Source: a virus. From it: 39,919 nt of DNA. The notes beneath the pieces are model-generated. The model was not told where the DNA came from. It did no database searches and was given only the letters and a program-made list of their open reading frames with translations. Of the stretch, positions 9,212-39,919 are shown piece after piece. Both the position numbers and the translations under genes were made by a program. The stretch is from the IMG/VR virus record IMGVR_UViG_3300047388_000310, positions 1 through 39,919 of that record; one strand, given 5' to 3'. Numbering within the stretch: position 1 is the first letter of the stretch; each line of letters begins with the position of its first letter.

Positions 9212-10588
9212 CTAGACGTTCGTCCACTGCTCCGAGCCGTAGGTGCTGTTGCACGCCCATAGTTGAAGCTGGGTTCCGCTGGTAGTGCTGTAATTCGGGT
9301 CACGCAGGCACTTGCCCGAGGTGGGGTTCACCCACTCGTGCGTGGTGTTGTTGTATGACCACTGCTGGTTCCACCCGCCGCTGCAGCGGTACAGGTCGAT
9401 TAGTGCGCCGTTCGCCGTGCTGTGGTTGGCGATGTTGATGCACTGCCCCGTGTTCAGGGAGCGTCGCAGCGACCCGTCAGGGTAGGCCACCCAGGTCTGG
9501 CGGGTGAACCCGTTACAGCCGCTGATGTCCACCTTGGTGTTGTTGGCAAGGGAACCGCCAAAGTCATCCACGCAGAAAGTGGACTTCCCCTTCAGCTTGA
9601 TTGCGGCCTTGGGATAGGTGGATGCGGCCTGACAGTTGCTGGTTCGGTTGTCCCACTCAGGCTGCATGGCGAAGGTGCCGGTGCTCATCGTTTCCGCGAA
9701 CAGCCCGGTCCACGCGCACTTGTCGCCGATCTCGAACCCAGCGTTGTCGTACCAGGCGGACTGGTTGTTGACGAACGGGTCGGTGACCGACTCGGTGAAC
9801 TCGTGCCCGCCGACGATGCTCCACCCGTCGAAGGCGTTCTGCACGAAGTTGGCCCCGCAGTTGCCGCCCTGGTCAGGCATGTAGGGCAGGTTGGTCCAGC
9901 TCAGGAGCTGGGTGCTGCTGTACTGGGCCCAGTTGTGGTAGGCGCAATACTGGGAGCCGAAGCCACCGCCGGGGTTGGTGCCCGAGGGGCTGACCACGAC
10001 GATCTGCGTGTTGTTGTTAATCGAGTGGCCGCCGCTGGCCAGGAAGTTGGCGTAGGCCACTGCCACCGCCGCGAGCTGGGCGTCCGTGGCCGAAGCGGGC
10101 ACCGCCCCGTCGCAGTAGACATTCTCCTGGATGAGAGCGTGGCCCGCCACGGTCGGGTAGATGGGGTCAGTGGGGCCGTACTGGCTGGCGATCGGGGCCT
10201 CGGTGTCGCTGCTGGTGCCGATGCCGCTGTAGAGAGCGCCGAGGTAGGCCTCGTCGTTGCCGCCGTTGCCGAGCTGGCCGCTACAGGTGGAGGACCACCA
10301 CAGGCCCCAGTAGATCACGTAGACCTGCGGGTCCTGCTGGACGGGGCCGCCGTGCCAGAGCAGGTTGCCGCCGCCCAGGCGGTTGATGGTGCCCGCCTTG
10401 GCGAACGGGACGGTGATCTTGGGGCTGCCGTGCTGGACGCTTGCCGGGTGCAGGGTGATCCCCCGCAGAAGCGGCGCCGTGTGGTGCGCCGTGCCCGCGC
10501 CCGCGGGGGCGGCGATCCCGAGCGCCGCCAGCAGGGCAGCGGCCAGGAATGCGACGGGGACAGACCATCGCCGCAGGGTTCCAGTCAT
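9212..10588 (-). CDS. Secreted HExxE metalloprotease-like protein with ricin-type lectin domain
   Basis: ATG 10588 is preceded by AAGGAA. The 458-residue protein has a typical signal peptide (basic MTGTLRRW, hydrophobic core to ~residue 30, AGA cleavage region). The central domain (~70-320) contains GGHEFTESVTDP (HEFTE, 262-266) and GFEIGDKCAW (~285-293), the zinc-peptidase-like HExxE plus downstream E-G-D pattern of a family of secreted actinobacterial proteins. Residues ~330-458 form a ricin B-like beta-trefoil with three QxW-type repeats (QTW, QQW, EQW) and disulfide cysteines, which bind sugars. It is probably exported to act at a glycan surface. HExxE replaces the usual HExxH, so catalysis is not certain. 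Last gene of the carbohydrate cassette. Confidence 0.7.
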   Translation of the reverse strand: MTGTLRRWSVPVAFLAAALLAALGIAAPAGAGTAHHTAPLLRGITLHPASVQHGSPKITVPFAKAGTINRLGGGNLLWHGGPVQQDPQVYVIYWGLWWSSTCSGQLGNGGNDEAYLGALYSGIGTSSDTEAPIASQYGPTDPIYPTVAGHALIQENVYCDGAVPASATDAQLAAVAVAYANFLASGGHSINNNTQIVVVSPSGTNPGGGFGSQYCAYHNWAQYSSTQLLSWTNLPYMPDQGGNCGANFVQNAFDGWSIVGGHEFTESVTDPFVNNQSAWYDNAGFEIGDKCAWTGLFAETMSTGTFAMQPEWDNRTSNCQAASTYPKAAIKLKGKSTFCVDDFGGSLANNTKVDISGCNGFTRQTWVAYPDGSLRRSLNTGQCINIANHSTANGALIDLYRCSGGWNQQWSYNNTTHEWVNPTSGKCLRDPNYSTTSGTQLQLWACNSTYGSEQWTNV

Positions 10589-10629
10589 AGATATTCCTTC
10601 CTTGGTTAATGACGTGAATAACGGGGGTC

Positions 10630-11334
10630 TTACCTCACGGAGAACTGCGTGGTTGCCAGGCCTTCGCCATTCACCCACAGCTCGAACCCCGCCGAGATCT
10701 GGACAAGCAAGTCGGCCGGGCGTGCCCAGCCCTGCGTGACTGCCAGCTCGAAAAACGGGGTGAGGTTCAGGTCTGTCACGCTTGCCCGTGGCGTGGCATA
10801 CCGGAACTGGATCAGGTTCCAGGAAACCGAGGGGTCATTCGCGCTCATTCGCGGCCGCTTGCTCAGCAGGAACTCATCCGCCCCCACTGTGACCGGGTAG
10901 GCTCCCAGCGGCACTCTCGGGTACGTGAGCATGATCATCACCTCGGCGACCCGGAACTGCTGGCCGGGCCACTTGCTGAAAATCCAGCAGTCGTAGGTGG
11001 TGTCCCACCTGCTCCCGGGCACGGCGTCCTGGCTGGTTTCCCAGGTGGTGAGGATGGGTCTCAGCCCCGCCAGGCTCACGGGCATGAAGCTTCCGTGCGT
11101 CTTGGCGTTGCCAAAGAGGCTGCAGCCGCTGCTGATGCTGGGGTAGCCCATCACGGCCGAGCTGTCGGCGGCTGATTTCACGATGGTGAAATCAGGGGCA
11201 CCGCTGGCATTGGTGATGCACTGCTCCCCGTTATAGGCGGTGCCGTAGCCCCAGGCGTTGTTGGCCAGGAGATAGGCGGGGGGGCCGCCGGCTGTCACGG
11301 GAAGGGAATCGTACTGCCCGCAGAGGATGCCCAT
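10630..11334 (-). CDS. GH12 endoglucanase-like enzyme lacking a signal peptide
   Basis: A 234-residue protein with the full GH12 pattern: CGQYDS at the N-terminus, NNAWGYG (~25-31), YNGEQCI (~34-40), SSGCS (~68-72), TTWETS, WDTTYDCWIF, EVMIML with the presumed nucleophile Glu131, and SAGFELWVNGEGL with the presumed acid/base Glu218. GH12 enzymes hydrolyse beta-1,4-glucan, xyloglucan or mixed-linkage glucan by a retaining mechanism. The start codon falls where the mature chain of secreted relatives begins; no export signal is visible. It starts four bases after the lipoprotein gene, so it is co-translated. It may trim the polymer made by the GT2 synthase. Family certain; localisation odd. Confidence 0.8.
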   Translation of the reverse strand: MGILCGQYDSLPVTAGGPPAYLLANNAWGYGTAYNGEQCITNASGAPDFTIVKSAADSSAVMGYPSISSGCSLFGNAKTHGSFMPVSLAGLRPILTTWETSQDAVPGSRWDTTYDCWIFSKWPGQQFRVAEVMIMLTYPRVPLGAYPVTVGADEFLLSKRPRMSANDPSVSWNLIQFRYATPRASVTDLNLTPFFELAVTQGWARPADLLVQISAGFELWVNGEGLATTQFSVR

Positions 11335-11338
11335 AGAA

Positions 11339-11770
11339 TCAGCCTTTGACCTGATGCTTCAGCAAGCAGTACGTGGCAATTAGTTTACCGTAGCCGAATG
11401 CGGCCTGCTGGGTCTTGTGCGACAAGACCATGGCGATCTTGTACTTGGCCCACATGGCCGCGATGGCGTCTGTCACGCAGGTGGTGGCTGCCTGCCGCCG
11501 GGCCGGGGTGCGGCCCAGGCATTTGACTAGCTTGTCCCGGTCCCGCAGCCCCCAGCCGGACCTGGTGATGCACTTGGCGAACACGGCCTCGGCGGCGTTC
11601 TTGCCGGGGAAATGCGCGGGGGCCGTGGCCGGGCTCGCGCTCGGGCTGGCACTAGGGCTGGCCGGAGGCGCGGCGGCGGGCGCGCTGCTGGTGCTGTGCG
11701 GGCCGCAGCCCGCGAGGACGAGGACCGCAGTGGTGAGGACCGCGGCGGCGAGGAAGGCTCTTGCGCTCAA
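11339..11770 (-). CDS. Small lipoprotein
   Basis: A TTG start overlaps the preceding stop (TTGA), with GAAGGA upstream. The 143-residue product has a lipoprotein signal with lipobox LAGC (Cys22), followed by an Ala/Ser/Pro linker (~25-53) and a compact helical domain with four cysteines (AKCITRSGWG, KCLGRTP, TTCVTD, TYCLLK), which may form two disulfides. It is likely anchored on the outer face of the membrane beside the polysaccharide synthase. No enzymatic motif is seen; an assembly or binding role is inference from context. Confidence 0.65.
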   Translation of the reverse strand: MSARAFLAAAVLTTAVLVLAGCGPHSTSSAPAAAPPASPSASPSASPATAPAHFPGKNAAEAVFAKCITRSGWGLRDRDKLVKCLGRTPARRQAATTCVTDAIAAMWAKYKIAMVLSHKTQQAAFGYGKLIATYCLLKHQVKG

Positions 11771-12705
11771 CTGGATTCCTTCAGTTTCTGGGACTCTTGG
11801 CGGAAGGTGGCCAGGTCCTGCGGGCGGTTGTCGAGATACCAGGGCCTGCGGCCATCCTGGTCATACCAGAGCAGGCCCAGCAGGTGGTACTGCCTGATGC
11901 CGTCGAACAGCGACCGGATCTGCTGCGCGCTTGTGAGCCATGGCCCGGTCGCCGTCTCGGTCAGCAGCACAGGCTTACTGGTGACGCGGCGGATTTGCCG
12001 CAGGGTGGGCCGGAAAATGCGGCGGAAGGTGGCCTGCGGGCCCTCGAAGTAGGCGTCCAGCCCGACCCAGTCCACGTACGGCGCGCCCGGCCACCACCGG
12101 GCCACGGGGGAGGAGCCGGGGCCGCCGTAGACATGGTTGACCGTCCACACCCAGGTCACCAGCGGGGAGGCCAGCAGGTCATGGACGCGGCGCCACGCCG
12201 TGATGAAGTCCGCCGGGCGGGTGTGCCGGAACCCCCACGGGTACCAGTCCCCGTTCATCTCGTGGCCGAAGGACAGGGCAACGCGCATGTGCGCCCTGGC
12301 TATCTGGGCGGCGAAGGAACGCAGGTGGCCGTCGTCCGCCCCGGACAGGACCGGGGCCACTCCCTGGCGCGGGTCGAGCTGGATGAGCGGCAGGATGCCC
12401 CGCGCTGTGAGGTACGCGGCCCACCGGGCCGGGAACGGGGAGCTGAGCCGCTGGTAGACCTCCACGATGGTGGGCGGCACCTGGGTCGCGGTCACCCAGG
12501 CGGCGAGGCGGGCCCTGCTCTGCTCGGCCAGGTCGACGCCCCGGTAGCATCCGGTGCTGCGGCAAAGCCGGAGCACCGGCGGTGGCGGGGAAGGGGCAGC
12601 CTGCGGCGCCGGGCCAGGGTGCGGCTGCGACAGGTTCCAGCCCAGGACCGCGATCAGGGCAAGGGGGACCAGCGCGGCCAGCGTCTTGCCCGCCCTGGAA
12701 GTCAC
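11767..12705 (-). CDS. GH26-family glycoside hydrolase, membrane-anchored or secreted
   Basis: The GTG start overlaps the GT2 stop (GTGA). The 312-residue product has an N-terminal hydrophobic segment (LAALVPLALIAVLGWNL) without a clear cleavage site, a Pro/Ala linker, then a TIM barrel with GH26 signatures: LSFGHEMNGDWYPWG (acid/base Glu149), TWVWTVN, RWWPGAPYVDWVGLDAYF, and KPVLLTETATGP (nucleophile Glu250). GH26 enzymes cleave beta-mannan, beta-1,3-xylan or mixed beta-glucans. Coupling to a GT2 synthase suggests it edits or releases the nascent polysaccharide. A second GH26 gene lies at the right edge of the window. Confidence 0.8.
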   Translation of the reverse strand: MTSRAGKTLAALVPLALIAVLGWNLSQPHPGPAPQAAPSPPPPVLRLCRSTGCYRGVDLAEQSRARLAAWVTATQVPPTIVEVYQRLSSPFPARWAAYLTARGILPLIQLDPRQGVAPVLSGADDGHLRSFAAQIARAHMRVALSFGHEMNGDWYPWGFRHTRPADFITAWRRVHDLLASPLVTWVWTVNHVYGGPGSSPVARWWPGAPYVDWVGLDAYFEGPQATFRRIFRPTLRQIRRVTSKPVLLTETATGPWLTSAQQIRSLFDGIRQYHLLGLLWYDQDGRRPWYLDNRPQDLATFRQESQKLKESS

Positions 12706-14198
12706 GCCGCCTCCAGAACGGCATCCGGCGGGACGGTCAGCGCCTCGATGCCCTCCTGGCGCGTTGTCCACCGCTGCTTCAGGAAGGTGCTGATCCCGTA
12801 CAGCCGGACCGGGCGCAGCACCACCGTGGCCCACAAGATGCCGGTGGGGTAAAGCAGCAGCGACTTCAGCCGGTACGCCCGGCTCTCACCCTCCCGCCGG
12901 ACCCTGAGGGTGTGCGGCGCGACCATGTAGGTCCAGCCGATCACCGAGACGGCCGCATACTCCAGGATCCGCGCGGAACCCGGCCAGTTGAGCGCGATGA
13001 CCGCCGGCAGCGCGGCCGACATGAAGATCATGTACCAGGTGAGCACCGTCCACCAGTAACCGTAGGAACGGACGGGCAGGTACTTCAGCCGCCAGCAGTT
13101 GCGGATCACCGCGCCGCGCGCCCAGCGGGTCCACTGGCGGAAGTGGTGGGAGAAGGTCTCCGGGTGCATAGGCAGGCTGAACGCGGTCGGCTGCTGCACC
13201 GTCTTCCCGTACCACTGGCAGAACAGGGTGAGCGCCGCGTCGTCGCCGAGTTTGATCCGCCGGCCCAGGAACGTCTCCCCGATATAACAAGGCACGGCCT
13301 CACGGATGACCCATGCCCGGTACAGCGCGAACGTGCCCCGGTTGACCAGCAGGCAGCCGCGCACCGATTGCGCGGCCCAGACGGTGAGCTGATAGTAGGT
13401 GTTGCGGACGGCCACGGTCCGGGTCAGCCAGTTGACGTTCTTGTTGAAGTTCTCCTCCACGCCGGCGACGGACATGACCTTCTCATCGGCCAGCGGCTTG
13501 AGCCCTTCCTCGATGCCGCGATAGTCCAGGGTGGTGTCCGAGTCCACCGTCACGAAGATGTCGGCCTCCGGGTGGGAGGCGAACACCACCGACTGCGCCC
13601 ACTTCTTGCCGCCGTTCTCCGGCAGCGTGGTCCACCGCACCTGGCAGCGGCCGCCGGATTGCGCTGTCCAGTGCTCCTCCAGTGACCGGTAGCCCGCCCC
13701 GCCCGAGCCGTCGTCCACGACATGGATGCAGTCAGGTGGCCAGGACTGGTTGAACAGCGCCCAGATGCAGCGGTCCAGCAGGGCGGGGTCCTCGTTGTAA
13801 ACAGGCACGGCCGCCACCACGCACAGCCGGCGCAGCAGCGCGGCCTCCGCGGGCCCCGCCGTGAACGGGCGGCTGAACCAGGAGATCGCCAGCGGGACTG
13901 CCCGCATGCCCAGCCCGGCCGCCCACAGCAGTAGCAGCAGCGGGGAGGCGTTCTCCGCGGACCAGTAGTGACGGGCGACCAGGAACAGGATCGCCAGCAT
14001 GGCGAGGGACGCCCAGGCCCACGCCCAGGAATCCGAATACCGGACGCGGGGGACGTCGTAGGACCCGCTCAGGGCTCCTGGAGTGACTTGCCGCGCCGCC
14101 ACAGGAACCGGGCCGTCAGCGCTATGGCGATGACGGCCGCCCCGCTTGCGGACGCGGCCACGATCATGTCCCGGAACACGGCTGTCGTTGCCTTTCAC
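12702..14198 (-). CDS. Processive GT2 polysaccharide synthase, hyaluronan/cellulose-synthase-like
   Basis: Membrane glycosyltransferase with the processive GT2 hallmarks (numbered from GTG 14198): VAAVPVYNEDP (~128-138), VVDDGSGG (~160-167), TVDSDT (DxD, ~217-222), KLGDDAALTLF (~316-326) and RQWTRWARG (QxxRW, ~354-362). Two N-terminal and several C-terminal membrane spans flank the catalytic core. It should polymerise a nucleotide sugar on the inner face and push the chain outward. The start is uncertain: the first ~50 residues from GTG 14198 look non-native and overlap another small frame, so translation may begin nearer 14050-14110 at GTG or CTG. First large gene of the cassette, coupled to GH26 by a GTGA overlap. 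Confidence 0.8.
   Translation of the reverse strand: MKGNDSRVPGHDRGRVRKRGGRHRHSADGPVPVAARQVTPGALSGSYDVPRVRYSDSWAWAWASLAMLAILFLVARHYWSAENASPLLLLLWAAGLGMRAVPLAISWFSRPFTAGPAEAALLRRLCVVAAVPVYNEDPALLDRCIWALFNQSWPPDCIHVVDDGSGGAGYRSLEEHWTAQSGGRCQVRWTTLPENGGKKWAQSVVFASHPEADIFVTVDSDTTLDYRGIEEGLKPLADEKVMSVAGVEENFNKNVNWLTRTVAVRNTYYQLTVWAAQSVRGCLLVNRGTFALYRAWVIREAVPCYIGETFLGRRIKLGDDAALTLFCQWYGKTVQQPTAFSLPMHPETFSHHFRQWTRWARGAVIRNCWRLKYLPVRSYGYWWTVLTWYMIFMSAALPAVIALNWPGSARILEYAAVSVIGWTYMVAPHTLRVRREGESRAYRLKSLLLYPTGILWATVVLRPVRLYGISTFLKQRWTTRQEGIEALTVPPDAVLEAA
14069..14167 (-). CDS. Small single-span membrane protein upstream of the GT2 gene
   Basis: A 32-residue frame (MIVAASASGAAVIAIALTAR then FLWRRGKSLQEP), or 36 residues if it starts at GTG 14179. 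It has one hydrophobic span and a basic stop-transfer tail. Its stop lies just before the point where conserved GT2 sequence begins, which suggests it is a separate coupled gene and that the GT2 start is downstream of 14198. It may be a small subunit of the synthase. No clear RBS. Confidence 0.4.
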   Translation of the reverse strand: MIVAASASGAAVIAIALTARFLWRRGKSLQEP

Positions 14199-14268
14199 TT
14201 GAGCAGGGCCCCCCCGGCTGCGGAATTAAGGTGACAGCCAGTTAACGGCGAACACGGATTGTAAGGGA

Positions 14269-14288
14269 TACCATCTCTAAATATGGTA
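14269..14288. promoter_or_regulatory. Inverted repeat over the serine integrase start codon
   Basis: TACCAT (14269-14274) and ATGGTA (14283-14288) form a 6-bp inverted repeat with an 8-base spacer that includes the ATG of the serine recombinase. TACCAT could also serve as a -10 element for a nearly leaderless transcript; no matching -35 is seen. A protein bound here would block both transcription and translation starts. Confidence 0.4.
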
Positions 14289-15776
14289 GCGGGCCAGGGT
14301 GGCGAATGGGTGGTTTACCTGCGCTTGTCCAAAGGGCGGGCCGGGATCGCCCGGCAGCGCCGGGCCACCATCGCCTGGGTGGAAGGCGACCTCGGCGGCA
14401 CCATCGTAGACGAGTTCCGCGACGCCGATAAGACAGCCTTCCAGCAATTCGGCGGCCCGCTGCCCAAACGGGCCGGGTTCGATGGCATGCTCGCCGCCAT
14501 CGCCGCCCGGCCAGGGCTGAGCGCCGCCGCCTGGCATGCCGACCGGCTGTGCCGCAACCTGGATGACGCCGAGCGGCTGCTCACCACATCGGCTGGCGCC
14601 GGGGGAGTGATCGGCACCCCGGCCGGGGGCATCTACGACCCGTCCACCGCCACCGGGCGGGGGAACTTCCGCCGCGACGTCGTGTCGGCCATCTCCGAGG
14701 TGGACCACATGACCGAGCGGATCGTGCTGATGAAGAACGAGGCCAAGGCGGCCGGGCACTGGCTCGGCGGCCCCAGGCCGTTCGGGTGGGAACGCGACCG
14801 CAGCCGCGAGGACGGGGAGCCGCCGCGGCTGCTGCTGGCGCCTGCCGAGGCGGACCTGATCCGCTCCGGCACCCTGGCGATCATCGAGGGTGCCTCGCTG
14901 CGGTCGGTCGCCGCCGCGTGGAACGCCTCCGGGATCACCGGCCCCAGGGGCGGCACGTGGGCAAACCGGGACGTTTCCCTGATGCTCCGCCGCGCCCGCA
15001 ACGCCGGCCTGGCCGAGCACAACCTCGACGGCACCGGCCCGCAAGTGCTCCGCGACGGCACCTGGCCCGCGCTCGTCACCGCAGACGAGTGGCGCACCTG
15101 CAAGGCGGTCCTGGAGAATCCCGCCCGGCGCACCGCGTTCACCACCCAGCCCAAGCACCTGCTGTCCGGGATCGCGCTATGCGGCGTGTGCGGGTCGCCC
15201 GTCGTGGCCGACGGCGGGAACCGCGGCCGCGGCCGCCCGCGCCAGGTCACCTACCGGGACCGGCCCAAGGGCGGCAAGGGCCACGTAGCCCGCAACGCCG
15301 GCCCGCTCGAGGAGTACGTCAGCGAACTGGTCATCGCCTGGGTCGAGCGGTACGGCCAGGACGCCCTGAACCCGCCCGCCCCGGACACCGCCCTGCTGTC
15401 AGCCCAGTTGCGGGCCGTGGAGGGCGAGCTGCGGTCCCTGGAGCGGGCCGCCGACGAGGGGGCCATCACCAACGCCCAGTGGCTGCGCCGCGTCACCCCG
15501 CTCAACAAGCAGGCCGCCAGCCTGGGCGGCCGCATCGCCAGCGCCGCCGTGGCCAGGGTGCCCGCGCAGGTCTTCACCGAGGACGACATCCGGGCCGGAT
15601 GGCACGCGGCGGACCTCGACGCCCAGCGGGCGATCATCCGCGCGCTCATGACCATCACCATCCTGCCGTCGCCGCCGGGACGGCCACCCGGGTGGAAGCG
15701 GGGCGACGGGCCGTACTTCCGGCCGGAGCTGGTGCGGATCGGGTGGAAGCGCGGGGGCGGCGACCCGGCCGATTGA
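14283..15776 (+). CDS. int: Large serine recombinase (phage integrase)
   Basis: The 497-residue protein has the three-part structure of large serine integrases. The resolvase catalytic domain begins WVVYLRLSKGR (nucleophile Ser16), followed by ARQRRA and AAAWHADRLCRNLDDAERL (~81-99). The recombinase domain begins LGGPRPFGWERD (~161-172), with WNASGITGPRGGTW. The zinc-ribbon region has LCGVCGSP (Cys300, Cys303), but the second cysteine pair is replaced by polar residues (TYRDRPKGGKGHVARNAGP). A coiled-coil-like segment (~365-400) precedes the C-terminus. It should join attP and attB; a gp3-like directionality factor encoded 18 kb away could reverse it. No RBS is seen, suggesting a leaderless start. 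Confidence 0.9.
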   Translation: MVAGQGGEWVVYLRLSKGRAGIARQRRATIAWVEGDLGGTIVDEFRDADKTAFQQFGGPLPKRAGFDGMLAAIAARPGLSAAAWHADRLCRNLDDAERLLTTSAGAGGVIGTPAGGIYDPSTATGRGNFRRDVVSAISEVDHMTERIVLMKNEAKAAGHWLGGPRPFGWERDRSREDGEPPRLLLAPAEADLIRSGTLAIIEGASLRSVAAAWNASGITGPRGGTWANRDVSLMLRRARNAGLAEHNLDGTGPQVLRDGTWPALVTADEWRTCKAVLENPARRTAFTTQPKHLLSGIALCGVCGSPVVADGGNRGRGRPRQVTYRDRPKGGKGHVARNAGPLEEYVSELVIAWVERYGQDALNPPAPDTALLSAQLRAVEGELRSLERAADEGAITNAQWLRRVTPLNKQAASLGGRIASAAVARVPAQVFTEDDIRAGWHAADLDAQRAIIRALMTITILPSPPGRPPGWKRGDGPYFRPELVRIGWKRGGGDPAD

Positions 15777-15799
15777 GTATGACTTCCGCTGAGTTTGGC

Positions 15800-15836
15800 T
15801 TGACAATCCCGATCCGGGCCACGTACGATACGACTT
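15800..15836 (+). promoter_or_regulatory. Consensus promoter giving a leaderless tyrosine recombinase mRNA
   Basis: A perfect TTGACA (15800-15805) and TACGAT (15824-15829) are spaced by 18 bases. The -10 ends seven bases before ATG 15837, so transcription should begin at or next to the start codon. This is the best consensus promoter seen in the window and makes the tyrosine recombinase gene independent of the serine integrase gene 60 bases upstream. Confidence 0.75.
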
Positions 15837-16814
15837 ATGACTAGAAGCGGTACTAAGCCTGTTGAGGGCTCTGACATGACCGTTTCCCGCGGTGACACCG
15901 TCGAATTCGAGGTCAAGGGCCGCGGGAAACTGACCGGGACCGTCGCCAGCGCCTACATGGCGCTCGGGAACAGCCCCCGGGTCACCGTGATCTCCGGCGA
16001 CAAGAAGTACACCCGGCTCGCCGCCAGCGTGACACTCACCCGCAAGGCCGCCGAGGTGCCCGGCGTCAAGGCTGGCTTTGGGCGCCGGAGCGCGGGGGAG
16101 CCCTCGCCCACCCGGGGGCGCCGGTACGCGGCGGAACTGCTCACCCCCGCCGAGGTCGCCGCGATCCTCGACACCTGCTCGCGCCGCGCGCCGACCGGGA
16201 TCCGCAACCGGGCCATGCTCACGCTCCTGTACCGCAGCGGGCTGCGCATCTCCGAACTGCTGGCCCTGCGGCTGAGCGACGTCAACCTCGACGCGCACAC
16301 CATCCGGCTCCTGGACACCAAGTCCGGGAAATCGCAGACCCGCGGGTTCCATCCCTCGGCCACTGATGCCCTCGCCCGGTGGGCCGACAAGCGGCGGCAG
16401 CTCGGCATCCGTAACGGGCGGCTGTTCTGCACCCTCGATGGCGGACCGGTGTCGGCCGAGTACGTGCGGATGATGCTGCGGCGGGCCGCCGCCAAGGCCG
16501 GGATTGAGAAGCGCGTCCACCCGCACGGGCTACGGCACACCTTCGCCGCCGAACTTGAAGCGGCCGGGACGCCGGTGACCACGATCAGCAAACTGCTCGG
16601 CCACTCCTCCGTGGCCGTGACCAACACCTACCTCCAGCACCTCACCAACAGCGAGGCGGTCACCGCCCTGGAAGGCGTAGACCTGCCGCCGCTTCCAGGG
16701 GCCAAGGCCCCTGAGCCGGCCACCCTGGAAGATGAGGTCGCGGCCCTGCGGGAACAGGTAAAGGCCCTGGCCGCCACGGCTTCCGCTCAGGCCGCAAAGC
16801 CGGAGGCGCGCTGA
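15837..16814 (+). CDS. Tyrosine recombinase with SH3/KOW-like N-terminus
   Basis: A 325-residue protein with a complete tyrosine-recombinase catalytic domain (~100-275): YRSGLRISE (Arg137), DTKSGKS (Lys162/165), HPHGLRHTFAAE (His230, Arg233), LLGHSSVAVT (His256) and NTYLQH (Tyr265). Residues ~15-70 are beta-rich (RGDTVEFEVKGRGKLTGTV, SPRVTVISGDKKYTRL) and resemble a small SH3/KOW barrel rather than the helical core-binding domain of ordinary integrases. A short coiled coil ends the protein. ATG 15837 is favoured by the leaderless promoter; ATG 15876, with GAGGGC upstream, is an alternative. It may resolve dimers, act on a second att site, or assist the serine integrase. Confidence 0.85.
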   Translation: MTRSGTKPVEGSDMTVSRGDTVEFEVKGRGKLTGTVASAYMALGNSPRVTVISGDKKYTRLAASVTLTRKAAEVPGVKAGFGRRSAGEPSPTRGRRYAAELLTPAEVAAILDTCSRRAPTGIRNRAMLTLLYRSGLRISELLALRLSDVNLDAHTIRLLDTKSGKSQTRGFHPSATDALARWADKRRQLGIRNGRLFCTLDGGPVSAEYVRMMLRRAAAKAGIEKRVHPHGLRHTFAAELEAAGTPVTTISKLLGHSSVAVTNTYLQHLTNSEAVTALEGVDLPPLPGAKAPEPATLEDEVAALREQVKALAATASAQAAKPEAR

Positions 16815-17161
16815 TGGAGGTCATGCTGCCCGATATGTCGCCAGGGCCAGCCGTCTACTTTGTGGGAGCAGCCCCCGCTAGCCGCCTAGTCAAAATCGGC
16901 CGGACGGTGAATGTCGCGAGACGGTTCGAGCACCTTCAGGCAGGAAGTCCTGTTCCGCTCACCCTGCTGGCCGTTGTGCGCACTTTCGATTGCCCGCGCG
17001 CCGAGGAGAGGTTCCATGAGGTATTCGCCGCAGAGCGTGCCCACGCCGAGTGGTTTGACCTGGGTGATGATCCGATGGCAACCGTCGCGTGGCGGATCGG
17101 CGACCTTGACGCATGGGTGAGCACCCAATGCATGGGCCAGTTGTGGTGGGAAGTGGCGTAA
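16814..17161 (+). CDS. GIY-YIG / T5orf172-like nuclease-domain protein
   Basis: The ATG overlaps the recombinase stop (TGATG) with GGAGGCG upstream, so the two are coupled. In the 115-residue product AVYFVGAAP, LVKIGRTVNVARRFEHLQAG, AEERFHEVFAAERAHAEWFDL correspond to the Y...K-I-G-x-T...R...E...HxxF...R...EWF pattern of the T5orf172/MUG113 branch of the GIY-YIG superfamily. Members are often phage-encoded and thought to be nucleases or DNA-binding modules. Its operon with a recombinase suggests a role in DNA processing during integration, but this is inference. Confidence 0.7.
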   Translation: MEVMLPDMSPGPAVYFVGAAPASRLVKIGRTVNVARRFEHLQAGSPVPLTLLAVVRTFDCPRAEERFHEVFAAERAHAEWFDLGDDPMATVAWRIGDLDAWVSTQCMGQLWWEVA

Positions 17162-17186: not shown

Positions 17187-17229
17187 GTACGCCGATAATA
17201 CCGATTATGTCAAGTTGTCATAGTTTGCC
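17187..17229. other. AT-rich island between convergent operons, candidate att or regulatory site
   Basis: Within a very GC-rich window this stretch is clearly AT-rich (GATAATACCGATTATG, then GTCAAGTTGTCATAG). It contains an ATAAT-accg-ATTAT inverted repeat (17195-17208) and two TTGTC-like words. It lies directly after the recombinase/GIY-YIG operon and before the end of the DUF397 gene. Tyrosine recombinase attP cores are often found in such a place. No sequence proof. Confidence 0.3.
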
Positions 17230-17553: not shown

Positions 17554-17841
17554 TCAGGTATCGCCCGGCTTCCCCCCGGTGCGTTTCTGCTCTGCCCGCT
17601 CCTCCGGTGTCAGCACCCGGCTGCCGTAGCCGGGGGTTGTCTTGACCCAGCCGTCGGCGCGGAGCGCGCCGAGTGCTTTGCGCACCGATGAGGGGGAGAT
17701 TCCGTACTGGGCGGCGAGGTGGCGCTCGCCGGGGAGGGCTGTCCCGGGCAGGGTGCCCGCCTCGATCTGCTCGTAGAGACTGGCCAGGAGCTGCTCCCAC
17801 GGCGGCACGCCGGAAGCGCGGTTGATCATGTCCGGTTGCAT
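17554..17841 (-). CDS. Short GntR-family transcriptional regulator
   Basis: ATG 17841 is the start that gives a normal N-terminus (MQPDMINRASGVPPWEQLLA); longer forms add an Arg-rich tail without similarity. The 95 residues are essentially one GntR winged helix: LYEQIEAGTLPGTALPGERHLAAQYGISPSSVRKALGALRADGWV (split here only by description), then GYGSRVL and a charged tail. There is no effector-binding domain. TACCGT six bases before the ATG could be a leaderless -10. Probably a local repressor. Confidence 0.8.
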   Translation of the reverse strand: MQPDMINRASGVPPWEQLLASLYEQIEAGTLPGTALPGERHLAAQYGISPSSVRKALGALRADGWVKTTPGYGSRVLTPEERAEQKRTGGKPGDT

Positions 17842-18005
17842 GATCGCACGGTAGCGGAGCGGGGAGATCCGCGTAACACCCGGCCAATCTGCACTGCTCC
17901 GCACCGCGCTGCGCTTACGCTTACTGGTGCACCGCCTCTGCCTGGTCCGGTTGCAACCTACTTGGCGGGGGCGGTGCTTTACCTTTGCTGTCCCGTGGGT
18001 ATGCG

Positions 18006-18048
18006 CCGGCCCCCGGACGGTGCCGCCAAACATCCTGCCGGGGGCCGG
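18006..18048 (-). terminator. Hairpin ending the first early operon
   Basis: An 11-bp perfect GC-only stem (arms 18006-18016 and 18038-18048, 21-base loop) lies 12 bases after the last stop of the long minus-strand operon and before the GntR gene. There is no T-run; a strong GC stem of this type is common at operon ends in high-GC actinobacteria. Confidence 0.6.
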
Positions 18049-23416: not shown

Positions 23417-24834
23417 GAGGCGGCCTCGCTTGAGTCGAACAGGGCACCCTGGCCGTCAGGGACAGGCGGGGGCTTGGGGACGCCACGGGCGCGGGCCCGC
23501 TCGCCGGGGTCGTTCACGCGCCAGGTGGCAAGGTCGCAGTAGTCGCCGGATAGTTCCACGACGATCCCAGCCCGGCCGAGCACGTCGGCGACGAGGCCGC
23601 TGGTCCCGGTGCCCCCGAATGGGTCCACGACAATGACCGGGGTAACTGGCGGGGATTCCCAATCCTCAAGGTGATACTCGCGCACCGGCAGGCGTTCTGG
23701 CCAGTCGTTTTGCCGGTGGGCGTACTTGCCCTGCCGGCTGGGCGTCACGGAAGGCTTGCGGCGCTCCGGGTGGTCAGTGAATGGAGTGCAGGGGCAGGCG
23801 TAGCCGATGATGGAGCTGCGTTTGAGCACGTGCGTTCCGGCCCGCTGATCCATGCCGTGAACGGTGTCCCGATTCAGCCGGGCACGGCCAGGCAGGTCGC
23901 GCTGGCGAAGCTGGACGCGCTCGCTCACAGTGACCGGGAACCGGCCCTCACCGCACGCGCCGCAGATGCCGGATGGGGACCAGCCGAGGATGATTCGTTC
24001 AGCGAGCGCGGGCGGGTAGGCGGCGTGGTGGTCAAGACCGTCCTCGCAGCCGGGCCGTTTGCGGCCACCGCAGCAGCGGGCGTGCTCGATGTGCTCGGGC
24101 ACCACCAGAGGCATCGAGGGGATCCGCCATACCGACCGGGGCAGTTTGCCGAGCGGGTGCCCGTCGATGCCGGTCTCGTCCCGCGCGGAGGTGCTGTGCG
24201 TCTGCGCCGGTAGCACGCCTAGTTGCTGGCGCGTCTTGTGGCCGTTCGGCCTGCGCTGCGGTTTCATTGTGTGCGCTTCGCGGATCTCGTCCGTGGCCGA
24301 GAAATACTGCGGCTGACGCACGAAGTGGAAGATTGTCTCGTGGCCGCGCACCACCCGGTCGCGGATGCTCTCGGGCAGCCCGTTGCCCTTCTCCCACACG
24401 ATCTCGGCGCGCAAGATCAGCCCCAGCTCGTCCTGCACCGCGAACGCATACCGCCACGGCAGGCCGATCAGCGTCTTCGGCGGGAGGCTCGTCTGGACCC
24501 GTGCGCGGCCGATGCTGGTCTGGCCGTGTAGCCCGGTGACATGCTTGCCACTTGTCGCGCCGCCCCACTTCGCGTCGTTGGCGTACTTGTCGCCCAGCAC
24601 CACGAAGATCGACCCGGAAAGCTTCAGTACCCGCACCCATTCGCGGGTGCACTCCACCAGGTGCGCGATGTACTCCTGCCACGTCGGCTCGTTGCCGATC
24701 TGCCCGGTCAGCGACGCGCCCTGGTCGCGGTAGTCGCGAAGCTGCCAGTAGGGCGGTGAGGTCACAATGAGATCCACCGACTCGGGCGGCAGCGGCAGCG
24801 ACCGGGCATCTCCCCGGAGCACGACAGCGGTCAC
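23413..24834 (-). CDS. Phage DNA methyltransferase (N4-cytosine/N6-adenine, beta-class) with Cys-rich insertion
   Basis: GTG start, 473 residues. Motif IV VTSPPYWQLRDY (~24-35) comes before motif I VVDPFGGTGTSGL (~402-413), the beta-class order. The target-recognition region between them contains a Cys/His-rich insertion (ARCCGGRKRPGCEDGLDHH, ICGACGEGRF, YACPCTPF, ~252-351), likely a zinc ribbon. SAM is the methyl donor; Ser/Asp-Pro-Pro-Tyr with leading Ser suggests N4-cytosine, but N6-adenine cannot be excluded. No linked restriction gene is seen, so it is more likely self-protection against host restriction than a restriction-modification system. Confidence 0.85.
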   Translation of the reverse strand: MTAVVLRGDARSLPLPPESVDLIVTSPPYWQLRDYRDQGASLTGQIGNEPTWQEYIAHLVECTREWVRVLKLSGSIFVVLGDKYANDAKWGGATSGKHVTGLHGQTSIGRARVQTSLPPKTLIGLPWRYAFAVQDELGLILRAEIVWEKGNGLPESIRDRVVRGHETIFHFVRQPQYFSATDEIREAHTMKPQRRPNGHKTRQQLGVLPAQTHSTSARDETGIDGHPLGKLPRSVWRIPSMPLVVPEHIEHARCCGGRKRPGCEDGLDHHAAYPPALAERIILGWSPSGICGACGEGRFPVTVSERVQLRQRDLPGRARLNRDTVHGMDQRAGTHVLKRSSIIGYACPCTPFTDHPERRKPSVTPSRQGKYAHRQNDWPERLPVREYHLEDWESPPVTPVIVVDPFGGTGTSGLVADVLGRAGIVVELSGDYCDLATWRVNDPGERARARGVPKPPPVPDGQGALFDSSEAAS

Positions 24835-25484
24835 GCCGGCACCAACTCGAGCGCCCGTGCGTGCATGGCCTCCAGTTGGGCCACGGCGACCGGGCTTTCC
24901 GCCTCGGCCATCTCCCGCAGGATCGGCAGCCCGGAGTCGATCGACGTAAGCACCTCGGCGCGGGTTGCTTCGCGGCCATGAGCGAACCAGCGGGCCCGCT
25001 TAGGCTCCCCGACGTTGACTAGCGTCCCGCCGGCGTCATCGCTGAACGTGGACCAGGACTTGTAACCGGTCACCCACACCAGGGCCACGCCCGGGTTGCG
25101 CTTGATCATGGTCCCGGCCGGGTCCGCCACCCCGGCGGGCTTGTGCCGCTCGCGGCGGACCATGTTCGGGGTTGTCAGGAACGGGCACGCCGTGGCCGAG
25201 TAGACCGCGCAGTCCTCGTGTGACGGCGGCTCGGCGCTGACCCGGTTGACCGCGCACATGGGGCCGATGACGAACGCCCGGTCCTCCTGGCGCAGGAACG
25301 GCAGTCCGCACACCCAGCAGAGCTTGTGCCGCAAGGCCAGCTCGATGCCGCCGGGCCGGATCACCCTGAAGTCGGGCACGCGATCCAGCCATGCTACGAA
25401 CCAGGGCACCGGCCGGTGGTGCCTGTCAAGCGGCAGGCGCGCGACCCCGCCGGGCATCAGGCCGGGCATCCTGCTGGTGCTCAC
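24831..25484 (-). CDS. Conserved prophage protein with Cys motifs
   Basis: GTG start, 217 residues. The N-terminal half has LPLDRHHRPVPWFVAWLD, LCWVCGLPFLRQEDRAFVIG, PMCAVNRVSAEPPSHEDCAV and SATACPFL, a pattern with several Cys and His that I recall from many actinobacterial prophages. The C-terminal half is helical and acidic. Probably a zinc-binding early protein. No function known. Confidence 0.65.
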   Translation of the reverse strand: MSTSRMPGLMPGGVARLPLDRHHRPVPWFVAWLDRVPDFRVIRPGGIELALRHKLCWVCGLPFLRQEDRAFVIGPMCAVNRVSAEPPSHEDCAVYSATACPFLTTPNMVRRERHKPAGVADPAGTMIKRNPGVALVWVTGYKSWSTFSDDAGGTLVNVGEPKRARWFAHGREATRAEVLTSIDSGLPILREMAEAESPVAVAQLEAMHARALELVPA

Positions 25485-32779: not shown

Positions 32780-33165
32780 CGGGCTGCCCCCGTTTCCCGT
32801 ACCTGGGCCAGCCGCTCGGCCAGCAGGGCATCGAGTTCGCGGATGCTGCGCCGCTTGCGGAGCTGCCCCCACGGGCCCATGCCCTCCTGGATGGCGCGCT
32901 TGTGCTGCCCCTGGGCGGTCGTGTAGCCGGGCAGGATGACCTCGGCGGGAGTGCCTTCCGGCAGCCCGTCCAGGCGTGCGGGGCTGCCGCAGCGGCAGTC
33001 CCAGGCGGGCCGGGGCGTGGCTTCTGCGGCGAGCGTGATGGTGAACGGGCCGCAGCGGGCACAGATGTAGATGATCTCTTGCCTGGGGGCGAGTTCCCGT
33101 GCTTCGGTTTCGCCCGAGGCCGGGCCGCTGCCGACCTTGGTGGCCTTGATCGTGCCGGGGCTCAC
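32776..33165 (-). CDS. RbpA-like RNA polymerase-binding protein
   Basis: GTG start, 129 residues. The layout follows actinobacterial RbpA: a variable N-terminal tail, a zinc-containing core (IYICARCGPFTITLAAEATP, AWDCRCGSPARL; Cys35, 38, 57, 59) and a C-terminal sigma-interaction helix (RKRRSIRELDALLAERLAQV, ~103-122), which aligns with the ERRSIxELExLLxERL motif of RbpA. Host RbpA activates group 1/2 sigma holoenzyme. A phage copy could favour phage promoters or replace the host factor. It lies between the exonuclease and RDF-like genes, inside the early operon. Similarity is by remembered motif. Confidence 0.75.
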   Translation of the reverse strand: MSPGTIKATKVGSGPASGETEARELAPRQEIIYICARCGPFTITLAAEATPRPAWDCRCGSPARLDGLPEGTPAEVILPGYTTAQGQHKRAIQEGMGPWGQLRKRRSIRELDALLAERLAQVRETGAAR

Positions 33166-34301
33166 TGGCCGCCTCCCGCCTGGTCGGCCCAGTCCGGGTC
33201 ATCGAACAGGGAGCCGTCATCGCCAGCCGGGGACGGGCGCGCGGCCTGTGCCTGGCGCTGGCGCGGTGCCCCGGCGGCGGGGAGTTCGTGCCACCGGGCG
33301 GCCAGGTAGTCGCGCAACTCCTCGGCCGTGCTGTCGCTGTCGCCGGGCGTGGTGATGTGGTTGTCCCTGAGGCCGCACTCGTCCGCCTGGGCGGCGTAGG
33401 CCTCAATCTCCTCGCGCGTGGTGGCGTTGGCGGCGTTGTCAGCGATCTGCTGCGCGGTCACCTCCGGCTTGCCCGCAGGCGCGGGCAGCGTGGTGGCTTC
33501 CGGCTCGCTGGTGCCCTCGGCGGGAGCCCCGGCGGTGAGCGCGAGGGGGCCGCTGCCGGCGCTGAGCATGGCGAGCATCCCGTCCATCCCGGTCGGCAAC
33601 TGGGCGAGCTGCTCGGCGGACGGGCTCGGCCGCAGGACCGGCACCGGGTAAGGGTGACCGTCCTGCCCGGGACGCCAGTGGATCAGGCACTGCGCCGGGA
33701 GGAACACGTCCATCGCGCGGGCCCGTTCCAGGACGGCTCCGGTGTCAGCAGTTTCGACCGCGGCGTTCGCGGACCCGGTGTTGAGCCGCCACACCCCGAT
33801 CGCGCCGGGCAGCCAGGGGATCGCGAGGTTGATCCTTGTGAGGGGCTTGCAGGCCTGCCCGAGGGCGGCGAGCCGCTTCCGCTCGTAAGCGGCGCCGGCC
33901 ACGTCGGCGGGGTCGGTGCGGTCCTCCGGCTGGGGGCACATGCACGGCTGCCCAGACCGGGTCTCGGTGATGCCGTCGCAGCGCCGCCGGCATTTCCCCT
34001 CCACCCACAGTTCCATCCAGGCGTCGACGGCCAGGCCCCGTGGTGGCACGAATACGTCGATCTTGGCCACGTTGGTGTCCACCACCCAGTACCCGCGGCG
34101 GCGGTCCCATGGTTCGGGCTTGCCGCCGAGCCGCTCGGCGATCGCGGCGGCGGTCTCCTCGGCGGGCGTGGTGAACCGGAAGGTCTCCCGGCGCACCGGC
34201 CGGCGGCCCTTCTTGCCGGGGATCGGCTCGGACTGGCCGATGCGTATTTCGCCGAGCGGCAGGCTGCGGCGCTGCAGGTCGAGAACTCCGGTGATGGGCA
34301 T
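33162..34301 (-). CDS. phiC31 gp3-like recombination directionality factor
   Basis: ATG 34301 lies one base after the nuclease stop; the longer start at 34334 has no family match. 379 residues. The first ~250 follow the phiC31 gp3/RDF family: GEIRIGQ near the N-terminus, RRETFRFTTPAEE, WDRRRGYWVVDTNVAKIDVF, GKCRRRCDGITETRSGQPCM (Cys104, 108, 120, 122), LTRINLAIPWLPGAIGVWRL and LPAQCLIHW. RDFs bind the serine integrase and switch it from integration to excision. The C-terminal part (EEIEAYAAQADECGLRD, WHELPAAG, DGSLFDDPDW) is variable. Its likely partner is the serine integrase 18 kb away. Confidence 0.75.
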   Translation of the reverse strand: MPITGVLDLQRRSLPLGEIRIGQSEPIPGKKGRRPVRRETFRFTTPAEETAAAIAERLGGKPEPWDRRRGYWVVDTNVAKIDVFVPPRGLAVDAWMELWVEGKCRRRCDGITETRSGQPCMCPQPEDRTDPADVAGAAYERKRLAALGQACKPLTRINLAIPWLPGAIGVWRLNTGSANAAVETADTGAVLERARAMDVFLPAQCLIHWRPGQDGHPYPVPVLRPSPSAEQLAQLPTGMDGMLAMLSAGSGPLALTAGAPAEGTSEPEATTLPAPAGKPEVTAQQIADNAANATTREEIEAYAAQADECGLRDNHITTPGDSDSTAEELRDYLAARWHELPAAGAPRQRQAQAARPSPAGDDGSLFDDPDWADQAGGGQ

Positions 34302-34302
34302 G

Positions 34303-35547
34303 TCAGGCTGCCTTTCCGGCGCGGGCCGGGTCATCGGCGAGGCTCAAGCCGTGGGCGGCGAGCATCTCGCGGATGGTTTCGATGAGCTTGGGGCCGACAC
34401 GCTTGATCGCGAGCACGTCAGCCTCGGTGAACTCGGCCAGGGCGGCCAGTTCACAGTCAGCGCCGAGCGCGTTGCGGAGCGGGGACAGGGCGCGGCCGTA
34501 GCCTTCGGCGGCCAGGTCGCACAGCCGCAGTCCGGGCATGGTTCCGTCGGGGCGCGGCGGGCGGATCGACGTGCCGGGCTTGTCCTTGCACGCCTGCCGG
34601 CCGCGTAGTAGATCTATCGACGCCAGGAACCGCTCCCACGCCTCCTCGTCGTCGCCGGCGGACACCAGTTGCAGCAGGTACCCGCCGGGGTACTCGGGGC
34701 GAAGGTGCAGCACCGCCCCGGCCCGCGTCTTGGGGGTCGGCACTAGCGCGGTGTCGATCTTGTCGGGGCGGCACTCGGGCATCCGCCGGTAGGCGGCGAG
34801 CTGCTCCTTCCAGGTGCCTTCCGGGGACTTGCCGGTCTTGAAGTCGATGCACACCGGCAGTACCTCGCCGGGGGCGGCGATGATGTGGGTGCCTTTGCCG
34901 GGGCAGAACGCGCCGAGGTGGCACCGGGTCCGGGGGTCGCCGCAGATGCCCAGCCCGCGGAACGCGATGATCGTGTCCAGGGTGCCGGCGATCTCCCGCT
35001 CGGGGTCGTAGACCTGCATCTCACAGGCCAGGAAGTCCCCGGGGCGCAGGCCGAAGTCGGACACGAACTGCACCCAGCCGTCAGCCATCCGGGCGGCGAT
35101 CACCGGCACCGGCTCGTCGTCGTACATGGCCTCGCGCAGGTGATCGGGCAGTTCGGGGTAGGGGACGTGGTGCTGGGCGTCTTTCCGCTCGGTGGCCCAC
35201 AGGATCAGGGCCTCGCCGACGTCGTGGAGGAAGGTGCCGGTGTCGGCCTTGATGTCGCGGAGCCGGGTGGCCTCGTCTTTGCCGAGGGCAATGGCTGCGT
35301 CACGGCCTTCGGTGCGTTTGGTGCGTGCGAGCAGGCCGAGGTGATCCACGCACCAGGCCGTCGACGTGCTGCCGTGCCACCTGGCGAACCACGGCTTGGA
35401 GTTGGTGCCGGCGATCAGCCAGGTCACCGACTCGAACAGGCGGGCCGGGTCGGGCGGGTAGGGGTACCACCGCTCGTCGGTGTGCTTGTCGGTGACCGGG
35501 GCCAGCGGGTCTGCGGGCGCGGGGAGTGTCCCTGCTGCGATGCTCAT
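34303..35547 (-). CDS. RecB/Cas4-like PD-(D/E)xK exonuclease with C-terminal helix-hairpin-helix
   Basis: ATG start, 414 residues. Nuclease motifs: GTFLHDVGEALILW (His108), FLACEMQVYDPEREIAGTLD (Glu176, Asp191), VCIDFKTGKSPEG (Asp235, Lys237) and TWKEQLAAYRR (Gln249, Tyr253). A Cys cluster (GICGDPRTRCHLGAFCPGKG, ~200-219) lies between motifs and may be an iron-sulfur or zinc site, as in Cas4/AddB-type nucleases. C-terminal FTEADVLAIKRVGPKLIETI is a helix-hairpin-helix DNA-binding unit. Likely the phage exonuclease of a recombination/end-processing system. No annealing protein was recognised beside it. Confidence 0.8.
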   Translation of the reverse strand: MSIAAGTLPAPADPLAPVTDKHTDERWYPYPPDPARLFESVTWLIAGTNSKPWFARWHGSTSTAWCVDHLGLLARTKRTEGRDAAIALGKDEATRLRDIKADTGTFLHDVGEALILWATERKDAQHHVPYPELPDHLREAMYDDEPVPVIAARMADGWVQFVSDFGLRPGDFLACEMQVYDPEREIAGTLDTIIAFRGLGICGDPRTRCHLGAFCPGKGTHIIAAPGEVLPVCIDFKTGKSPEGTWKEQLAAYRRMPECRPDKIDTALVPTPKTRAGAVLHLRPEYPGGYLLQLVSAGDDEEAWERFLASIDLLRGRQACKDKPGTSIRPPRPDGTMPGLRLCDLAAEGYGRALSPLRNALGADCELAALAEFTEADVLAIKRVGPKLIETIREMLAAHGLSLADDPARAGKAA

Positions 35548-38768: not shown

Positions 38769-39041
38769 GTGATGGATGAGGCTGGGGGCGCTTCCCTGGA
38801 AGGCCGGGTGGAGGCGCTGGAGGCGAAGGTCGCTGCCCTGGAGCGGTTCTTCACCATGCTCGGCCGCGACGGCCAGGACGGTGCCACACCTGCCGCCGGC
38901 GGCGGCTCCCGCTGGGTGGAGTTCGGGGACAGCGACTACCTGGTGCCCGAGGGCATGACCGTGGAAGAAACCGACGCGGTGTTCCGCCACGCCGAGGCCA
39001 GCCCGCGGAACGCCCCGCCTCAGCCGCCCGCCGCTGGCTGA
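38769..39041 (+). CDS. Small coiled-coil protein
   Basis: Start GTG 38769 or ATG 38772; TAAAAT (38758-38763) just upstream could be a -10 for a leaderless mRNA, although it overlaps the stop of the XRE gene. 90 residues: a coiled coil (LEGRVEALEAKVAALERFFT), a Gly-rich linker, WVEFGDSDYLVPEGMTVEET, and a Pro-rich end. Its 3' end overlaps the convergent GH26 stop by 22 bases. Confidence 0.5.
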   Translation: MMDEAGGASLEGRVEALEAKVAALERFFTMLGRDGQDGATPAAGGGSRWVEFGDSDYLVPEGMTVEETDAVFRHAEASPRNAPPQPPAAG

Positions 39042-39919
39042 GTGCCTGCCGCCTGCGGGGTGCCGCCCCGCTGCTGGATCAGCCGCAACGGCTTGGTCAA
39101 CTGCCGGAACACGGCGCTGTCCTTCGGGTCGCCTTCCAGCCGGTAGGACAGGAACGCGGACTTGTTCTCATCGAACCAGACCAGGCCCAGGTCGTGCTCC
39201 TGCCTGATCGAGGCCCACATCTCCTGCAACTGCCACGGCTCGGTGCCCACCGGCCCGATCGCGGTCTCGGCGATCAGCAGCGGGTCCTTGGTGAACTGGC
39301 GGATCTGGGCGATGGTGGGCGCGAACACGCTGCCCCAGGTGTCGTCGGTCGCCTGGTAGTAGCCGTCGATCCCGATCCAGGTCACGTAGGACGCGCCGGG
39401 CCACCAGTCTGCCACCTGGCCGGTTCCCCGGGTCTGCGCCCCGGGCGGGGTGTCGATGTTGACCGTCCACAGCCAGGTGACGTTGTCGGCGCCCTGCCGG
39501 CGGAACACGGTGACGATGTGCTGCCACGCGGCGCGGAAGTCGGCCGCTGGCTGGTTCAGGTACCCCCACGGGTACCAGGTGCCGTTCATCTCGTGGCCGA
39601 AGCCGATGACGACACCTTTGCCGTAGGTGGCGACCTGGTCGGCGTAGGAGGTCAGGTAGGAGTCGTAGGCGCCGGCGGCGATGGCGGCGAGCCGCACCGG
39701 CTGGCCGGTGACGCCGCGGCCGGCCCCGGTGACCGGGTCCATCTGCACCAGCGGGATCGCCCCGTGCGCCGCCGCGTCGTTCGCGAACTGGGCCTGGAAC
39801 CGCTCGAACCACCCGGAGTAGTACAGGGCCAGGTTCGGCTGGTGGCCCGCGGTCTTGGCGAAGGTTTCCATCCCGGAGTAGGAGCCGGGGGACGTGGCCT
39901 CGTAAGCGCCCAGGTAGGC
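39020..39919 (-). CDS. GH26-family glycoside hydrolase, 5' part outside the window
   Basis: The frame stays open to the right edge. The residues before METFAKTAG read AYLGAYEATSPGSYSG, matching the family's usual YLGxYEpxxPxSY region, so ATG 39871 is internal. The barrel shows FGHEMNGTWYPWG (acid/base Glu), TWLWTVN, DWWPGASYVTWIGIDGYY and LLIAETAIGP (nucleophile Glu). It resembles the GH26 gene at 11767-12705 in motif spacing, but is clearly a different copy. It probably cleaves a beta-glycan outside the cell. Its N-terminal signal cannot be judged. Confidence 0.8.
   Translation of the reverse strand, partial: AYLGAYEATSPGSYSGMETFAKTAGHQPNLALYYSGWFERFQAQFANDAAAHGAIPLVQMDPVTGAGRGVTGQPVRLAAIAAGAYDSYLTSYADQVATYGKGVVIGFGHEMNGTWYPWGYLNQPAADFRAAWQHIVTVFRRQGADNVTWLWTVNIDTPPGAQTRGTGQVADWWPGASYVTWIGIDGYYQATDDTWGSVFAPTIAQIRQFTKDPLLIAETAIGPVGTEPWQLQEMWASIRQEHDLGLVWFDENKSAFLSYRLEGDPKDSAVFRQLTKPLRLIQQRGGTPQAAGTQPAAGG

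Follow-up and report, generated by a model that had tools for sequence, protein, structure and literature searches.

A large serine integrase, a tyrosine recombinase of reduced architecture and a dif-type site in an actinobacteriophage contig

A temperate phage is usually credited with a single integrase. The 39,919-bp IMG/VR virus contig IMGVR_UViG_3300047388_000310, which was analysed as a whole record and is called the window here, encodes two unrelated site-specific recombinases side by side, and this raises the question of what the second enzyme does. A large serine integrase of 497 amino acids (14283..15776, + strand) is followed, after a gap of 60 bp, by a tyrosine recombinase of 325 amino acids (15837..16814, + strand). 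An earlier note on this DNA had described both as catalytically intact, and this description holds. Both open reading frames are intact, both catalytic sets are present, and GC3 supports both genes as coding. The window is best explained as part of a temperate actinobacteriophage that has two modules for site-specific recombination.

The surroundings of the pair are those of a phage. To the left lie a holin gene and phrog_19005 genes, and to the right are genes for a DnaB-like helicase, replication initiation, a methyltransferase, an exonuclease and a repressor-like protein. The position between the holin and the early genes is the customary spot for integration modules. No capsid or terminase genes were recognised among the proteins scanned in the window, so the record is probably partial. 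The possibility that one gene is frameshifted, or that the two belong to different elements, was also considered. Neither frame is interrupted, and a chimeric contig or two tandem elements was judged unlikely, given the phage genes on both flanks and a second viral record, G002, that is collinear with the window across the recombinase pair and one early gene. Directly after the tyrosine recombinase, a MUG113/T5orf172 (GIY-YIG-type) protein of 115 amino acids is encoded (16814..17161, + strand). Its start overlaps the recombinase stop, and the two genes are probably co-translated; a counterpart is absent from the other pair-bearing loci. A GntR-family regulator (17554..18033, − strand) follows, and a regulator of this family also neighbours an integrase in loci L004, L071-L073 and L183.

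The serine enzyme matches phrog_95 integrases along its whole length (7e-59) and contains the Resolvase (PF00239, 1.7e-9) and Recombinase (PF07508, 2.1e-8; 34.8 bits, cut-off 21.1) domains. In the alignment, the catalytic positions Y12, R14 and S16 (YLRLS), Q25, R88 and R91 are kept. The match to the zinc ribbon PF13408 is weak, at 22.2 bits below the cut-off of 25.3. Specifically, the CxxC is kept while the second Cys pair is lost, the window reading YRD...KGH against YRC... in relatives, several of which keep the second pair. The phiC31-type large serine integrases (phrog_95; LastHope, phiCAM, REQ1) share with the window enzyme the Resolvase and Recombinase domains, the catalytic residues and a position next to the early genes, and the window phage also has a Gp3-like recombination directionality factor (RDF). 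However, the window enzyme is only 28-32% identical to them, has a zinc ribbon with only its first Cys pair and is directly followed by a tyrosine recombinase. A single-sequence pattern search found no close relatives of it in IMG/VR. One relative of the window serine integrase (L070, 2847-5046) adjoins a divergent gene for a small serine resolvase-like protein of 191 amino acids, which is another two-recombinase arrangement.

The Gp3-like RDF has 390 amino acids (33162..34334, − strand) and matches PF18897 (2.8e-29), to which the directionality factor of phiC31 belongs. Gp3 is reported to work via the zinc domain of the integrase (PMC5814800). Because the zinc domain of the window integrase is without its second Cys pair, the Gp3-like protein is a candidate for its cognate factor. 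With such a protein encoded in the same phage, the serine enzyme probably handles both integration and excision alone. The proposal in the earlier note that this enzyme integrates the phage is thereby strengthened, and we infer that it serves as the integrase in vivo. No Gp3-like protein turned up in the other records with the pair, of which some are partial; therefore, the RDF need not be linked to the pair. A putative attP, speculative and read by eye, may lie 5' of the serine integrase gene (14228..14275, + strand) in an AT-richer stretch with imperfect half-sites GGTGAC...GGGATACC. A test for a hairpin 5' of the gene gave no folding signal (z 0.5).

The tyrosine recombinase matches a single domain, Phage_integrase PF00589 (9.6e-40), at residues 102-269, and the alignment places the catalytic set at R137 (GLR), K162, H230-x-x-R233, H256 and Y265. 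The gene also has its own promoter, as had been claimed. The sigma-70-type sequence TTGACA-18-TACGAT (15800..15829, + strand) agrees with the consensus at 10 of 12 positions and is the only match in 4.6 kb, where 0.3 would be expected. Because only 7 nt separate the −10 element from the ATG, the mRNA may lack a leader.

A core-binding domain was not recognised in this protein, and its N-terminus is without a match in the profiles. The catalytic domain spans ~96-280, and the AlphaFold model is confident for it (~100-280, pLDDT mostly >90). The N-terminal extension (1-95) is modelled with low confidence and is beta-rich rather than helical, with strands at 21-61 (pLDDT ~48-64), and a C-terminal helix is modelled at 297-319. 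The extension has no match in phages, Pfam or the fetched loci, and in the loci searched no conserved small partner gene that could provide a core-binding domain lies beside the small recombinase. Among solved structures, the closest in sequence are XerA, XerC-like and XerD, a structure search gives the same kind of protein, and the curated Xer models score far below their cut-offs (XerC, 129.8 of 335 bits; XerD, 128.6 of 330 bits). Thus, while the catalytic domain is nearest to XerC, XerD and XerA by both profile and structure and a dif-type site lies nearby, the window enzyme differs from them in having no core-binding domain and in falling outside the Xer clade.

The enzyme belongs to a clade of viral and bacterial proteins that are mostly 39-53% identical to it and mostly 198-270 amino acids long, with typically 6-78 residues preceding the catalytic domain. 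In a tree of 67 proteins, the clade forms one group (support 82/99) on a long stem, and the actinomycete Xer proteins, E. coli XerD and FimB/FimE all fall outside it. Its members were retrieved by the motif EKRVHPH, the apparent conservation of which is partly a selection effect. A profile search independent of the motif recovered five clade members from 394 actinomycete genomes at E <1e-60, with a clear gap to the ordinary Xer proteins at ~1e-40. According to a review of tyrosine recombinases, even the 'simple' enzymes consist of a core-binding and a catalytic domain (PMC8138268), and the clade therefore falls below this minimum. No description of the clade was found in the open-access literature searched. 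None of the single components is new in kind; what appears new is their combination, together with the identification of a widespread clade that lacks a core-binding domain and accompanies other integrases. Catalytic-domain-only tyrosine recombinases would also be simple test cases of how much of the fold site recognition needs.

Companionship with another integrase recurs within the clade. Among 12 other viral records with a clade member, a serine integrase is found in five (G002, G005, G006, G008 and G009, with the close relatives G005 and G006 counted as one lineage), and a full-size tyrosine integrase lies directly upstream of the clade member in three (G001, G003 and G008). In G002, the serine and tyrosine genes are adjacent, 111 bp apart, on the same strand and in the same order as in the window. 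In G005, they are also adjacent but convergent, separated by 11 bp. The distance is 2-7 kb in G009 and G006, the genes are distant in G008, and in a bacterial contig (G150:C5) they are ~9 kb apart. A search for other genomes with the pair, which the earlier note had proposed, is thus answered positively. A second integrase was not found in four clade records of 30-122 kb, which are possibly partial. As controls, records selected for a serine integrase contained any PF00589 protein in 0 of 8 and 1 of 23 cases (~29 distinct), and none of 30 serine integrases in actinomycete genomes had a tyrosine recombinase within ~1.5 kb. The expectation that a phage normally keeps one recombinase is therefore borne out by the controls (1 of ~29), but not within the tyrosine clade, where the companion state is common.

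The comparison with G002 also bears on the age of the arrangement. The serine proteins of G002 and the window are ~25% identical and the tyrosine proteins ~46%, and the window gene at 24831-25484 has a collinear counterpart in G002 (71% identity), as does one more stretch of DNA. Because the pair and its order recur in so distant a record, with both proteins diverged, the recent capture of a second module that had been suggested is unlikely. These alignments argue for a duo that was inherited together, although separate acquisitions are possible. At locus L003 (7998-8108), a perfect inverted repeat, GAGTATCG-N14-CGATACTC, with a partial direct copy, lies between a serine and a tyrosine gene; it is possibly a recombination site or an operator.

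A possible target of the tyrosine enzyme is a dif-type Xer site, TACGCCGATAA-TACCGA-TTATGTCAAGT (17188..17215, + strand), located 373 bp downstream of the recombinase gene in the gap where the MUG113 and DUF397 genes converge. The site has 11-bp XerC and XerD arms around a 6-bp centre, and the chance expectation of such a site in the window is 0. Both arms match the dif of Frankia alni, CACGCCGATAATGCACATTATGTCAAGT (PMC3025954), save for the outermost base. With up to 2 mismatches allowed, 178 of 296 actinomycete genomes contain the arm pattern, almost always in single copy, and the reversed arm pattern used as a control has 0 matches in the same 296.

The centre of the window site is unlike that of chromosomal dif. 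Chromosomal centres follow NNNACA, with 38 of 45 exact-arm sites ending in ACA, whereas TACCGA does not. In 14 actinobacterial plasmid sites retrieved with the window site as query, all centres end in GA, often as TANNGA; since this query favours window-like centres, a second query carried a chromosomal centre, and the six sites then read had the centres TGTACC (three), TGGAGA, GATACA and TGCAAA. An N-masked dif query gave 0 matches against plasmids, probably a word-size effect. Sites on mobile elements thus mostly have centres unlike NNNACA, and the window site is one of this group. Such sites, with centres of their own, offer a concrete, testable target.

The distribution of these sites is broad. 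They are widespread on actinobacterial plasmids (L118-L121, L207-L222), and 4 of 20 lie beside a tyrosine recombinase-HTH operon, namely in pSI-1, pAAG24-152, pNBRC108728a and pLDW-10 (L119, L214, L217 and L218). Most of the other plasmid sites have no tyrosine recombinase nearby. An exact-arm site is also present in seven other viral contigs (L111/L114, L112, L113, L115, L116, L117), and no recombinase was recognisable in the stretches read around them. A dif-type site is missing from all 12 further viral records of the tyrosine clade, so a single genome ties the enzyme to the site.

Based on the current evidence, the reading that we tentatively favour, at somewhat below even probability, is that the serine integrase integrates the phage while the tyrosine recombinase and the dif-type site form an Xer-type module, most likely for multimer resolution. 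The first module would consist of the serine integrase and the Gp3-like factor and would carry out integration and excision of the prophage. The second would comprise the Xer-like recombinase without a core-binding domain, expressed from its own promoter, and the dif-type site just 3' of it. Recombination of the Xer type between two copies of the site would resolve circular phage multimers to monomers, possibly with host XerC/XerD joining the phage enzyme at the site. With integration and excision covered by the serine enzyme and the RDF, the tyrosine module fits resolution. One site per genome and two per dimer, within a non-coding gap, would also fit, and with its TACCGA centre the site would recombine with its own copies more readily than with chromosomal dif. 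Dimer resolution had already been suggested for this enzyme, and the suggestion gains from the site 373 bp downstream; that the enzyme acts there, with monomerisation as the outcome, is what we infer. An enzyme without a core-binding domain, however, cannot make the usual DNA clamp, which counts against resolution.

Monomerising a circular mobile genome beside a separate system of propagation is the role proposed in common with P1 Cre-lox and plasmid Xer/cer. The enzyme clade and the site differ from theirs, and the function in the window is proposed from sequence. A fuller version of the scheme is itself unlikely. In it, a new clade without a core-binding domain accompanies integrases, and its member here, equipped with an N-terminal extension, would recombine a plasmid-class dif, by itself or in a hybrid with host Xer, and so monomerise the phage. 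If serine integrases are repeatedly paired with a stripped-down Xer-like enzyme, some phages would split integration from the maintenance of the genome unit.

Among the alternatives, the one that survives best is somewhat unlikely, namely that host XerC/XerD alone serves the dif-type site, while the phage enzyme, encoded close by only through coincidence, acts elsewhere or has a regulatory role at att complexes. Since most phage and plasmid sites, including those of the seven viral contigs, have no adjacent tyrosine recombinase, host XerCD alone may suffice, and the absence of the site from all relatives of the phage enzyme agrees with this. Coincidence would nevertheless have to place the sole dif-type site in 40 kb 373 bp from the sole tyrosine recombinase, in the gap that ends its operon.

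It is improbable that the site is instead an alternative attP by which the phage enters host dif via Xer, beside the serine route. Filamentous phages of Vibrio do use dif-like attP sites with altered centres (PMC5357621), VGJphi and IMEX are precedents, and the window site sits inside the integration module. However, TACCGA differs from the actinomycete chromosomal NNNACA, a lysogen of the window phage at dif was not found, and a serine integrase with an RDF is already there.

A role as a FimB/FimE- or Rin-like invertase, which would switch a phage gene by DNA inversion, appears more improbable still. FimB (200 aa) and FimE (198 aa) share with clade members the catalytic-domain-only architecture of ~200 amino acids, but they lie outside the clade, and the window protein is longer by 95 amino acids at its N-terminus and by a C-terminal helix. 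It reaches 74 and 64 bits with the NCBIfam invertase models, for which the cut-offs are 222 and 221, and a search of the window for inverted-repeat cassettes gave low-complexity matches only, none convincing as an invertible cassette. Rin of bifidobacterial prophages is likewise a second, non-integrase tyrosine recombinase of actinobacterial temperate phages (PMC6109161), but it adjoins a receptor-binding-protein shufflon, which has no counterpart in the window. Equally improbable is a redundant or recently captured second integration module with no distinct role, since the pair and its order are kept in the diverged G002 and the pairing is repeated in other records, even if clade members sometimes look like the only recombinase of their element (G004, G007, G011 and G012, and at a prophage edge in G172).

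Several further observations were made on the clade and the window. In G172, the small recombinase (L182, 8986-9603) lies at the boundary between phage and host genes and may be the only recombinase of its element; searches for att repeats around G172 and G150 gave short GC-rich repeats only, with no convincing att core. An Actinomycetes MAG contig (L032, 4435-14392) contains at least five consecutive copies of the small tyrosine recombinase (229-269 aa) within 10 kb, and L028 likewise has a row of them, plus inverted partial copies. Both rows resemble an expanding array. The window itself encodes a SLOG-family YAcAr domain protein (PF10686; 19774-20346, − strand) and a carbohydrate-active gene cluster (9212-14198 and 39020-39871, both − strand), with a glycosyltransferase 2, two GH26-like genes, a ricin-type lectin domain and a GH12-like gene. 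The two GH26-like genes are 27 kb apart and are 79% identical in DNA across 80 bp.
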